Source: Candidatus Gastranaerophilales bacterium
GTDB lineage: Bacteria; Cyanobacteriota; Vampirovibrionia; Gastranaerophilales; Gastranaerophilaceae
Length of the DNA stretch: 42,495 nucleotides
Assembly: GCA_944324845.1 (NCBI GenBank)
Contig: CALUXX010000002.1
Location: 1 to 42,495 of the forward strand
Reading direction: 5' to 3'
The notes beneath the pieces are model-generated. The model did no database searches. It saw nothing but the letters and a program-made list of their open reading frames with translations, and was not told the DNA's origin. Positions within the stretch are counted from its first letter, which is position 1; each line of letters opens with the position of its first letter. Made by a program: the position numbers and the translations under genes. Shown piece after piece: positions 38,579 to 42,178 of this stretch.

Positions 38579-39517
38579 TTATTTATTTTCATCTAAATCG
38601 TAATTGCTGATTGTGTCGTTCAGAATTTGAATCATTTCATCACGAAGGTTTTTAGGTGATATTATTTCGCAACTGTCTGTATAACGCATTAGTCTTTGGA
38701 TTAATTTGTCAAAACTTTCGTTTTTATTTATTACTATAAGTTCACCGTTTTCATTATAACCGTCAGAGTATTCATTTTCTTTTAATTTATAAGTTTTAGC
38801 AAGTCTGTTTTTAAGTTTATAAACAACTGTTGTTGACATTTCGATATCGCTTGCAATTTGAGGTAATCTTACGATAGATAGAACATTATTTATTGGAATT
38901 TCGAGATTTATGTGATTAACAGTATCATAAATTCTTAAAGAAACATTTTTGCAACCGTAAAGAACTTCTTTTAGTACGCCTTTGCATTGTAATTGTTTAT
39001 TATTTTTCAGATAAATAATATTTATCATAAATCTTTCTGCGCAAATTTTTTCGCACTGAATGATTTGTTCTCTAATATTGGCATAATAAAATCCAAAATC
39101 ATAATTCGAATTATTAAGCAAAGAATTTAAGGTATTTTTGTCTTCGCTTTTCATTCTTAATTCGACTTTATTCAGCATATTTTGAACTTGGTTTGATTGT
39201 TTATTTTCAGGAAAATTTTGGATGTAATTTATTAAAATACTAATTGCTCTTAAGTCTGCATCATTAAGGTTTATTGAATATAGACTATTTTGAATTTTAT
39301 ATTTAGTATTTTCTTTTTCAATTTTCAGTCCAAAAACTTTTAATGTATTAATGTATCTGTTCAGAATTACTTGAACATTTTCTTTTGGAGTTTCTTTAGA
39401 GCCATCTTTAAATATTTCAAGCACTTTGTCGTATTCTGCTTGATCTTCGTAAAGTAGTTTTAGAAATTTGAATATTTTAAGGCAACCGTCATTTAATTTT
39501 TTATTATTTTTCATCAT
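38579..39517 (-). CDS. WYL-domain transcriptional regulator, second of a tandem pair
   Basis: The 312-residue protein has an N-terminal winged-helix-like region (about 5-75, INTLKVFGLKIEKENTKYKI) and a WYL-like domain (about 155-215) with a degenerate ligand patch (INIIYLKNNKQLQCKGVLKEVLYGCKNVSLRIYD), then a WCX C-domain ending YTDSCEIISPKNLRDEMIQIL. It overlaps the upstream WYL gene by 14 nt. AGAGGG precedes the double ATG (39517/39514). The two proteins share domain order and are probably a heterodimer or ancient duplicates. Confidence 0.72.
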   Translation of the reverse strand: MMKNNKKLNDGCLKIFKFLKLLYEDQAEYDKVLEIFKDGSKETPKENVQVILNRYINTLKVFGLKIEKENTKYKIQNSLYSINLNDADLRAISILINYIQNFPENKQSNQVQNMLNKVELRMKSEDKNTLNSLLNNSNYDFGFYYANIREQIIQCEKICAERFMINIIYLKNNKQLQCKGVLKEVLYGCKNVSLRIYDTVNHINLEIPINNVLSIVRLPQIASDIEMSTTVVYKLKNRLAKTYKLKENEYSDGYNENGELIVINKNESFDKLIQRLMRYTDSCEIISPKNLRDEMIQILNDTISNYDLDENK

Positions 39518-40445
39518 AGCCCTCTTTCATTTTCTTTAGGGTTGTGATTATAAAATCTTTAAAATCTTGCGGGTATAATACTTTACATTTTTTAGAAAGG
39601 AACATTATTCTTTGCATTAAATCAAATTTACTTTTTGAAGTTATTTCGATTAATAATTTATTTTCAGAACTTGAGATAATTTTTTCATTTTGAAGAGGTT
39701 CAAATATTTCGTTAACATCTTTTGTATATTCATATCCTACGGTAATTTCAGGCGTAGAGAGTGTTTTGTGTCCAAGGTTTACGCTAACTATTTTTATAAT
39801 TTTAGATACAAGAAATTTTGAATAATTATTATGTTCGGCATTAAATCCATAAATATATAATTTACCATTTTCGATACCGATTTTATCGGTTAGAACAGTA
39901 ATATTTTTTCGCCCGGAAATGGGTGAATTGTAATATATAGTAATTTCATTTTTGTTATTTGCATATGTTCTAAGTTGTTGAATTAAGTTTGTATCAATAT
40001 TACTAATTGGAGAAATATTTGTTAATTTTTTCTTCAAATCATCATTAGAAACGTAGTCGGCAATTTTATTAAAAAATGATTGTAAAGCCATTAAATCCAT
40101 GACATCAATAGATTTAGAAATGGTTTTATAAACTTTGATAATACTTTTAACTTGTTCATCGTCAAAAGTTAATTGAAACGGGTGAGAATCAATAGTATAT
40201 TTATACACTCCGTTTTCGCTAATTCTTTTGATATTACAGCCAAAACTTTTGAGAGTATTAAAGTAAATTCTCAAGGCATCTACTGACAAATTTTCATGAA
40301 GATATTCATGATTTTTTATATAATCTTGAATTTCTTTATACGATTTAGGAGAATCCGTTAATAATGAAAAAATTATCATGGATTTAAAACCGGTTAAAGA
40401 TAATAGGTTATGTGTAATCGTGTTAGTTTTATAAAATTGTTTCAT
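39504..40445 (-). CDS. WYL-domain transcriptional regulator, first of a tandem pair
   Basis: The start is taken at ATG 40445 (MKQFYK); a GTG at 40487 lies over the promoter region. The 313-residue protein has the N-terminal winged-helix region with FNTLKSFGCNIKR, matching FLKVFG-type helices in the partner, and a clear WYL domain (NKNEITIYYNSPISGRKNITVLTDKIGIENGKLYIYGF, with KLYIY where WYL normally stands), then the FLVSKI..IVSV strand and a WCX-like end. WYL domains often sense nucleic acids or nucleotides, as in PafBC and BrxR/CapW. Adjacent genes do not disclose a defence island. Confidence 0.78.
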   Translation of the reverse strand: MKQFYKTNTITHNLLSLTGFKSMIIFSLLTDSPKSYKEIQDYIKNHEYLHENLSVDALRIYFNTLKSFGCNIKRISENGVYKYTIDSHPFQLTFDDEQVKSIIKVYKTISKSIDVMDLMALQSFFNKIADYVSNDDLKKKLTNISPISNIDTNLIQQLRTYANNKNEITIYYNSPISGRKNITVLTDKIGIENGKLYIYGFNAEHNNYSKFLVSKIIKIVSVNLGHKTLSTPEITVGYEYTKDVNEIFEPLQNEKIISSSENKLLIEITSKSKFDLMQRIMFLSKKCKVLYPQDFKDFIITTLKKMKEGYDEK

Positions 40446-40467
40446 AAAATTTTCTTTAACTCTTATT

Positions 40468-40497
40468 GCTATAATGCAGTCTAGCACAAACTTTCAA
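40468..40497 (-). promoter_or_regulatory. Promoter of the WYL-WYL-HTH operon, with a small palindrome
   Basis: TTGAAA (40497-40492), 18-nt spacer and TATAGC (40473-40468) on the minus strand. TGCTA (40467-40471) and TAGCA (40482-40486) form a 5-bp inverted repeat spanning the -10, a possible operator for autoregulation. Confidence 0.4.
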
Positions 40498-40699
40498 GAT
40501 TTTCCAGTCATAAAAAAACATGCTAAATTTATTATTAAAAAATTATCATTTGTCAAATAAAATTTAATAAAATTTTTACAAGATTTCATTAAATTATCTT
40601 CATTAAGAATAGTTAACTTGAATTTTTACTAATAGTATCAGGGGGCATGGTCAAATGTAAAAAAATAATAAAATTTTTTTACTTGTAATTCTCAATCAA

Positions 40700-41035
40700 A
40701 AGGACTAGAGTAGATTACATAAGGAAAGCCGAATTAGAAAAAAGGCTACCAGACAACGGAAGGGAAAAACGTTACTCTGTAGTAAGTAACAAATATGACA
40801 TAAGATGGTTGGACGAAAGAAATAGAGGTGATGGTGAAGAAGTCCAAAAAGGAAAGAGATTACTGGGGGCAGTCGTTGCCTGTATGGTTAGGGATATTGT
40901 ATTTATTATAAACTTAATTTATTTATTTAATTTTTTATCTAGTATATTTTGGGGGAAGCAAAGACTTTTAGAAGAGAGTTGTAAGGATAGTTGTAAACTT
41001 TTTAGCCTGGACTTGAAAGAGTACGGGCTTTTTTA
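40700..41035 (+). ncRNA. Candidate structured noncoding RNA of about 320 nt, class unknown
   Basis: A promoter-like pair (TTGTAA 40683-40688, 17-nt spacer, TAGAGT 40706-40711) is followed by a GC-richer stretch and ends in an intrinsic terminator at 41004-41035. Pairings seen by eye: AGAGTA 40707-40712 with TACTCT 40773-40778, AGCC 40727-40730 with GGCT 40744-40747, TTGGAC 40809-40814 with GTCCAA 40842-40847, GGCA 40868-40871 with TGCC 40877-40880. I could not match it to RNase P RNA, tmRNA, 6S or SRP RNA. It could also be a decayed gene; the frame from 40689 to 41051 has no ATG and uses codons unlike the neighbours. Confidence 0.35.
41004..41035 (+). terminator. Intrinsic terminator before anmK, overlapping the anmK promoter
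   Basis: AGCCTGGACT and AGTACGGGCT (41004-41013, 41020-41029) pair over 10 positions with one mismatch and one G-T pair, loop TGAAAG, followed by TTTTTT. The anmK -35 box lies in the loop. Confidence 0.7.
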
Positions 41036-41041
41036 TATTAT
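41013..41041 (+). promoter_or_regulatory. anmK promoter, apparently leaderless
   Basis: TTGAAA (41013-41018), 17-nt spacer, TATTAT (41036-41041), six bases, then ATG at 41048. The predicted +1 is the A of the ATG, and there is no Shine-Dalgarno. Confidence 0.72.
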
Positions 41042-41047
41042 AAAAAT

Positions 41048-42178
41048 ATGATAGAAGATTTGGAGCCTAAAAAAGTTATAGCATTAATGTCAGGGACTTC
41101 TTGTGATAGTATTGATGCAGGTTATTGTGAAGTTTATCCTGACAAATCCGTTAAATTAATTCACGGAATAAATTACAGCTACCCGGAACATATTCAAGCG
41201 AAGATATTTCAATTATTTAGGGGTGAGGCTACAATTAAAGATATTTGTCAGATGAATTTTGTAATTGGAAAATGTTTTGCTGATGCTGCAAATGTTTTGA
41301 TATCTGAATTTGGCAAACCTGATTTTATCTCCAGTCACGGACAAACTATTTATCATTATCCATATGATGAAAAAATAGATAATATAAATATGAAAAGTAC
41401 ATTTCAAATAGGTGAAAGTTCAGTAATTGCAAAAGAAACAGGATGTATGACGATATCAAATTTCAGAGAAGTAGATATTGCGCATAATGGTCAAGGTGCA
41501 CCGCTTGTTTGTTTTGCCGATGAAATGTGGTTTAAACATAAGGGAAAGAATTTTGCTATTCAAAATATCGGTGGAATATCGAATGTAACTGTTGTTTCTA
41601 AAGATTATGAAACTTTCGGATTTGACACAGGTTTAGGTAATATAATGATAGATTACTGTGTTAGAAAATATTTTGGAAAATCTTATGATAAAGATGGTGA
41701 AATAGCTTCAATCGGAACAATATCAGATAATTGGTTAGACTGTTTACTTCAAGATGAGTACTATTACTTAGATCCCCCAAAAACAACAGGAAGAGAATAT
41801 TTTTCATCTGAATATATCGAAAACACATTAAAATACGCTCCACAAAACCCTGAAGATATAATAGCAACAGCAACTGCATTGACTGCCAAAACGATATCTC
41901 AAGCTTATGAGCGTTTTGTCTATCCGAATACATCAATAGATGAAGTTGTTATATGTGGTGGTGGTGCTTATAATAAAACACTTATGAAAATGTTAAGAAC
42001 ATATCTTCCAAAACATATAGCTTTGAAAACCTGTGAAGATTATAATATTTCAAATAATTACAAGGAAGTAATGGCATTTGCACTTTTGGGTTATTGCACA
42101 TACTATGGAATTCCTAATAATCTGCCTTGCTGTACAGGTGCAGATAAAAGAGTAGTTTTAGGTAAAGTTTCATACTAA
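41048..42178 (+). CDS. anmK: Anhydro-N-acetylmuramic acid kinase
   Basis: Phosphorylates and opens 1,6-anhydroMurNAc during peptidoglycan recycling. The 376-residue protein has family length, with MSGTSCDSIDAG (ATP phosphate 1 loop), SSHGQTIYH, the substrate region FREVDIAHNGQGAPLV, NIGGISNVT, FDTGLGNIMID (phosphate 2 with catalytic Asp) and VVICGGGAYNKTLM. It starts 12 nt after a terminator T-run and directly after a promoter. An upstream frame ends at 41051 but I consider it non-coding. Confidence 0.95.
   Translation: MIEDLEPKKVIALMSGTSCDSIDAGYCEVYPDKSVKLIHGINYSYPEHIQAKIFQLFRGEATIKDICQMNFVIGKCFADAANVLISEFGKPDFISSHGQTIYHYPYDEKIDNINMKSTFQIGESSVIAKETGCMTISNFREVDIAHNGQGAPLVCFADEMWFKHKGKNFAIQNIGGISNVTVVSKDYETFGFDTGLGNIMIDYCVRKYFGKSYDKDGEIASIGTISDNWLDCLLQDEYYYLDPPKTTGREYFSSEYIENTLKYAPQNPEDIIATATALTAKTISQAYERFVYPNTSIDEVVICGGGAYNKTLMKMLRTYLPKHIALKTCEDYNISNNYKEVMAFALLGYCTYYGIPNNLPCCTGADKRVVLGKVSY

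Follow-up and report, generated by a model that had tools for sequence, protein, structure and literature searches.

Within the 42,495 nt stretch of DNA analysed here (the window), only the gap at 40487-41048, ahead of anmK, exceeds 300 nt, as had been noticed when the sequence was originally read. What occupies this gap? The original prediction placed an uncharacterised structured RNA in it, on a GC-richer island in AT-rich surroundings, and the island is measurable: GC content is 0.14-0.26 in 40500-40749 versus 0.37-0.43 in 40700-40899. Comparison with related genomes leads us to conclude that 40683-41034 is very probably a stand-alone noncoding RNA gene, independent of anmK. The gene itself is well supported and previously undescribed; its mechanism we infer. 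The source genome (G000) is 1.96 Mb in size and 99% complete. We take its genus to be Zag111 and its family to be Gastranaerophilaceae, and the g and f labels used below are those of the classification tool. The principal features of the locus are:

40683-41034, + strand: whole RNA gene, promoter to terminator
40717-41034, + strand: predicted RNA of about 320 nt, its start placed from promoter spacing and its end from the terminator
41048-42178, + strand: anmK, the downstream neighbour, outside the RNA gene (Pfam AnmK, 315.6 bits)

The locus is noncoding and matches no known RNA family

An open frame of 120 codons at 40689-41051 raised the possibility of a protein-coding gene, and a protein-like substitution pattern in it would have spoken against an RNA. 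The frame is broken in all 20 aligned homologues, and a homologue that is 92% identical also breaks it. Every forward frame contains at least five stops in 20/20 of the aligned homologues, and the long open frame of the window is therefore luck. With no conserved open frame, the protein reading was rejected.

Searching the locus with the Rfam 15 covariance models gave no match at gathering score and only weak sub-threshold hits, in keeping with the earlier impression that it does not resemble the common RNAs, and ARAGORN returned nothing at the locus. A diverged RNase P RNA, 6S RNA, tmRNA or SRP RNA was rejected because the genes or candidates for these sit elsewhere in the genome: RNase P RNA, tmRNA and SRP RNA are all present at other positions in G000, and the 6S model (RF00013), which found no match at the RNA locus, has its best candidate at C1:140236 (41.5 bits, below the cut-off of 46.4). 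A literature search on the RNA, extending to result listings and the opening lines of abstracts, found no relevant paper.

A conserved promoter module and terminator delimit the gene

The signals that bound the gene are listed below.

40584-40607, + strand: distal module, TTTCATTAA and CTTCATTAAG, 14 nt apart, with the same spacing in most related loci in the alignment
40641-40661, + strand: module block GGGGGCATGGTCAAATGTAAA, usually single-copy per genome
40657-40682, + strand: AT-rich inverted repeat GTAAAAAAATAATAAAATTTTTTTAC, immediately 5' of the -35 hexamer, read directly from the sequence
40683-40688, + strand: -35 hexamer TTGTAA
40706-40711, + strand: -10 hexamer TAGAGT (consensus TANANT in related loci)
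41004-41034, + strand: intrinsic terminator, hairpin AGCCTGGACT/AGTACGGGCT (41004-41029) plus T run, supported by covariation

The promoter-like start had been placed at 40683, which is exactly the position of the -35 hexamer, with TAGAGT following 17 nt later. The promoter is of the sigma-70 type (TTGTAA-17-TAGAGT), with a predicted transcription start near 40717. The pair TTG-N20-TANANT occurs in 64/64 loci from 11 related genera, always at exactly 17 nt, a spacing that the search pattern itself fixed. In most other genera the -35 hexamer is TTGTCA. Further upstream, CATGGTC lies 37 nt 5' of the -35 hexamer, CTTCATTAAG 47-48 nt beyond it and TTTCATTAA another 14 nt away. These module blocks are nearly free of indels across the 11 genera, the outer ones being weaker in other genera, and the arms of the inverted repeat GTAAAAAAATAATAAAATTTTTTTAC co-vary between species, as judged by eye only.

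The terminator that had been proposed was confirmed by comparison of 36 sequences: 98.1% of 376 cells pair and 8/11 pairs change on both sides, a result matched by 0/500 shuffles. A simple terminator scanner missed this hairpin.

The RNA gene is near-universal in one family

BLASTN detected homologues in 22/25 genomes of the genus, its own included; the three genomes without a match are 84-88% complete. Two matches outside the genus (G035, G039) were judged, after reading them, to be due to chance. For comparison within the genus we used a 21-sequence alignment, which omits L018 (contig end), L023 (the second copy of genome G002) and L024-L026 (duplicates). A scan of named public genomes, for which the 3' block GGATAGTTGTAAACTT served as the search pattern, yielded 37 loci, mostly in entries titled Gastranaerophilales, Melainabacteria, Cyanobacteria or (uncultured) bacterium. 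One of the 37, on a contig titled Muribaculaceae (JAMPCZ010000039.1, L059), probably comes from a mislabelled MAG or contig.

A sequence-only model of the promoter module matched 174/188 sampled genomes of the family, with E 1.3e-8 or better in 164; these counts were read from the match listing and include, by construction, the 45 sequences from which the model was built. Most family genomes without a match belong to genus g30, which largely lacks the module. Among 101 other genomes of the class, 7 matched, the best at E 1.6e-4; these were taken as chance, leaving convincing matches in 0/101. Two module-pattern matches (L201, L202), in which neither core nor promoter was seen, were likewise dropped as chance. 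The copy number is usually one, a few genomes show a second module match, and G002 has two copies. The length of the RNA differs widely between species.

A conserved promoter and terminator of its own, together with partner genes that vary, are what a trans-acting RNA gene would be expected to show, and sequence comparison points to an independent, noncoding gene that is family-wide and specific to one Gastranaerophilales family. Its near-universal presence, mostly single copy and rigid promoter probably reflect a basic cellular job. That almost all sampled genomes of this large family, whose members live in the gut and are relatives of cyanobacteria that do not photosynthesise, retain the gene is of interest, as such a pattern usually signifies a basic role.

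The neighbouring genes vary

The original prediction described the RNA by its position upstream of anmK, and as a functional tie this did not survive comparison: the downstream genes vary and the RNA is an independent gene. The reading in which the RNA is a cis-acting leader or attenuator, its folding or the translation of a micro-ORF setting read-through into anmK, draws on the 27/38 genus loci where anmK comes next. It draws also on g16 and g28, where anmK follows the RNA with no terminator seen by eye. In a locus of g19 (L084, genome G090), what is left of the RNA is a short leader immediately 5' of anmK, with promoter and core kept. Against it, many relatives have anmK elsewhere in the genome, and the RNA is followed by unrelated genes or by none. 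The genes that follow include anmK, rbfA-truB, adk, a metalloenzyme-superfamily gene, secD and a cheR-type gene, or there is none nearby; even within the genus, rbfA-truB or adk may replace anmK. We therefore regard the leader reading as very unlikely and contradicted as a general account, although it could hold for g16, g28 and L084.

In 7/7 genomes of g26, the RNA has the SRP RNA as its 5' neighbour, with both encoded on one strand. A structured-looking element, CGGGACACTCTGCCGAAC...GAGAGAGGAAGCAG, was observed 3' of the RNA in two g26 loci, L186 (at about 1900-2500) and L185. L186 has tandem copies of it, a tRNA lies close by, and the repeat has no Rfam match.

On its other side the RNA gene faces two genes on the opposite strand, a divergent arrangement shared by most genera:

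39504-40487, - strand: WYL1, divergent PafBC/DriD-like WYL-domain protein, likely start 40445
38579-39517, - strand: WYL2, second WYL-domain protein, overlapping WYL1 on the same strand

Pfam and NCBIfam hits to the WYL genes are absent or under cut-off. The predicted WYL1 model (pLDDT 84.8) has the HTH-WYL-WCX fold in Foldseek comparison, matching 9fnd (E 2.9e-11) and 8tp8 (E 8.4e-11), which represent PafBC and DriD, with a low whole-chain TM of 0.2-0.3. The pair (38579-40487) is faster-evolving, at ~42-65% identity across most of the genus versus ~80% for AnmK and 80-92% for Der.

WYL1 is divergent to the RNA in 34/38 genus loci; three of the other four have <450 nt of flank and one (L046) has no WYL genes beside the RNA. 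Put differently, WYL1 lies within ~500 nt in 34/35 genus loci with enough flank. This proximity raises the question of whether the RNA is coupled to the WYL pair, as an effector switched on by WYL1/WYL2 or as their nucleic-acid ligand. The resemblance of the WYL1 model to PafBC and DriD, which are described as binding ssDNA, would suit such a role, as would the presence of the core in 64/64 of the RNA-bearing WYL1 upstream regions from 11 genera. Other observations speak against coupling. WYL1 was found in 111/117 genomes of the order, and among the 108 upstream regions read (G028, G046 and G052 were omitted, and two of the 108 are incomplete) the RNA is present in 64, every one of them in the 11 genera, and the 44 without it belong to other genera and families. 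Conversely, seven genera (g16, g26-g28, g31, g33 and g35) keep module and core with no WYL1 match in the fetched flanks, and in g16 and g28 of these the RNA stands before anmK. Other loci of the family in which the flanks gave no WYL1 match have a metalloenzyme-superfamily gene, secD or a cheR-type gene after the RNA, or the SRP RNA ahead of it. A WYL gene as a required partner was thus rejected, because the RNA persists without WYL1, and coupling of any kind appears improbable.

The RNA is lightly structured

The elements recognised within the RNA are as follows.

40727-40747, + strand: P1, AGCC (40727-40730) with GGCT (40744-40747); weak, with few both-side changes
40771-40790, + strand: P2, variable hairpin GTTACT/AGTAAC
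40809-40847, + strand: P3, hairpin TTGGAC (40809-40814)/GTCCAA (40842-40847) around the core
40825-40834, + strand: core GAGGTGATGG, SD-like stretch and ATG at 2-nt spacing, from sequence comparison
40888-40898, + strand: conserved block TTAGGGATATT, TAGGGAT in 61/64 RNAs
40985-41000, + strand: 3' block GGATAGTTGTAAACTT, invariant in the genus alignment of 21 sequences

Evidence for overall folding is weak: the folding energy of the whole RNA is not better than that of shuffled sequences (z = -0.06), and RNAalifold, run on the 21 aligned sequences, returned a consensus with few reliable pairs. The terminator, P2 and P3 are nevertheless supported by comparison. P2 beats the shuffled mean in 32/36 relatives and is deleted in one. 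For P3, native arms scored -6.43 versus -5.34 +/- 0.18 for arms swapped between sequences, a value reached by 0/300 swaps (n=105); with swaps confined to the genus, the swapped arms scored -5.89 +/- 0.15 against the native -6.43, again with 0/300 (n=105). An earlier comparison of 87 sequences pointed in the same direction. P3 positions were paired in 55.4% of cells versus 46.9 +/- 1.8% (0/500), in a register picked after slid controls, the count one column off showing no excess. Nearly half of the P3 cells are unpaired, partly through shifts of the arms between genera, and some species are without P3.

Covariation, the absence of which had been put forward as an argument against the RNA, is accordingly present in the terminator and P3. 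Of the several helices originally envisaged, P2, P3 and the terminator hold; P6 does so in part (better than the shuffled mean in 33/37) and P4 weakly (28/37; native 11.95 vs shuffled 11.15). The description of the RNA as structured was correct for the terminator, P2 and P3, but it is only lightly structured, and the parts conserved best are short blocks lying outside the helices. A GGCTRCC(G)G block at P1 recurs in other genera.

An invariant core resembles a mis-spaced ribosome-binding site

The core takes the form GAGGUGAUGGC or GGAGUGAUGGC, each SD-like with a start codon 2 nt off. GAGGTGATGG is present in 64/64 WYL-linked loci from 11 genera, and 19/19 further loci, five of them found through the core pattern itself and fourteen through the promoter module alone, carry GAGGTGATGG or GGAGTG[A/G]TGG. 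Among 20 out-of-sample loci, hand-picked from module matches outside the model, the core was found in 18, one having GGGGTGGTGGC and one none, with 0/20 on the opposite strand. The SD-like part alternates between GAGGTG and GGAGTG, even within one genus.

Use of SD sequences is modest in the genus, with SD-like motifs at 59/183 long ORFs. A 2-nt spacing occurs in 0/59 of these ordinary starts, most of which have 6-9 nt, and therefore counts against efficient initiation at the core; such a spacing points to a site that binds but does not initiate efficiently. The rest of the RNA contains fewer SD-like hexamers than expected (31 vs 53.2 +/- 8.4) and no AGGAGG (0 vs 13.6 expected), on which grounds a multi-site anti-SD sponge was rejected.

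We favour engagement of the 30S subunit because the core site is invariant, alternates between two SD-like forms and has similar sites avoided elsewhere in the RNA. The core, displayed in the P3 loop, would pair with the 3' end of 16S rRNA; the anti-SD sequence is assumed from general knowledge, the 16S 3' end being absent from this assembly. Such pairing would give the RNA one point of contact with the 30S subunit, would yield no conserved product, and might serve to adjust translation or the availability of 30S subunits in response to the condition sensed by the promoter module. Taken whole, mechanism included, the proposal of a trans-acting RNA gene that engages 30S through its core is tentative, and we place it somewhat short of an even chance. 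Further observations weigh against it. Pairing to the anti-SD leaves the invariance of UGGC, beyond the SD complement, unexplained, where a protein site or an antisense seed would explain it; and the single-core reading is weakened by the 2/20 out-of-sample loci that lack the exact core and by g30, largely without the module.

The extended proposal, a housekeeping-like, family-defining RNA that binds 30S through a mis-spaced SD/start site as a regulated ribosome brake or reservoir, is doubtful. We know of no described counterpart to an RNA brake or reservoir controlling translation initiation in this way. If the core truly contacts the ribosome, translation initiation would be under RNA control of an unusual kind.

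The start codon itself invites another explanation, in which the core starts a tiny ORF (MA*, MAK*, MVK*) of a dual-function RNA or micro-ORF leader, where the act of translating matters and the peptide does not. The start is ATG in 64/64 loci and GTG in the exceptions (L193, L218 and the variant L220), codon two is GCN or GTN, and 16/64 ORFs have only two codons. Yet the ORF ranges from 2 to 36 codons, its peptide is not conserved, and the 2-nt spacing is atypical. Coupling of its translation to that of an upstream ORF with its stop at TGATG was rejected, applying to only 15/59. We consider a micro-ORF role to have a low probability.

A role in protein titration or as an antisense RNA comes close to 30S engagement in likelihood, while unlikely in absolute terms. 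Here the unpaired GGA/GGGATA/GGATAGTTG blocks and GUGAUGGC would contact an RNA-binding protein or mRNAs, the likeness to a ribosome site being incidental. The composition of the RNA is consistent with this: C accounts for only 7.9%, the RNAs as a group being C-poor, GGA is enriched outside the core (488 vs 420 +/- 11.5), GATAGTTG occurs 37 times vs 0.5 expected, and the invariance that includes UGGC runs past the SD part. On the other hand, GGATAGTT-type blocks differ in number and place between genera, and CsrA, the classic GGA-binding partner, is missing from the genome (best 14.1 bits, cut-off 27), so that a CsrA sponge was rejected. Should the RNA titrate a protein, this would imply that a genome lacking CsrA encodes an as yet undescribed RNA-binding protein.

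Comparison with known systems

Like riboswitches and 5' leader attenuators, the locus has a promoter, hairpins and a terminator and sometimes lies ahead of anmK; it differs in having no constant downstream gene. The neighbouring WYL pair shares tandem WYL genes and a fold match with the WYL activators PafBC and DriD, but has low sequence similarity to them. The RNA resembles 6S RNA (RF00013) as a single-copy, family-wide noncoding RNA, the best 6S candidate being elsewhere in the genome. Its housekeeping-like distribution recalls SRP RNA (RF00169/RF01854), which it adjoins in g26, RNase P RNA (RF00010) and tmRNA (RF00023), but the genome's own copies of these are not at the RNA locus. CsrB/RsmZ-type titrating RNAs are stand-alone, with a regulated promoter, an intrinsic terminator and repeated GGA. 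The RNA described here would similarly be a stand-alone regulatory RNA with promoter, terminator and repeated GGA; in contrast to that type, it stands in a genome without CsrA, has no Rfam match and combines few repeats with one invariant core.
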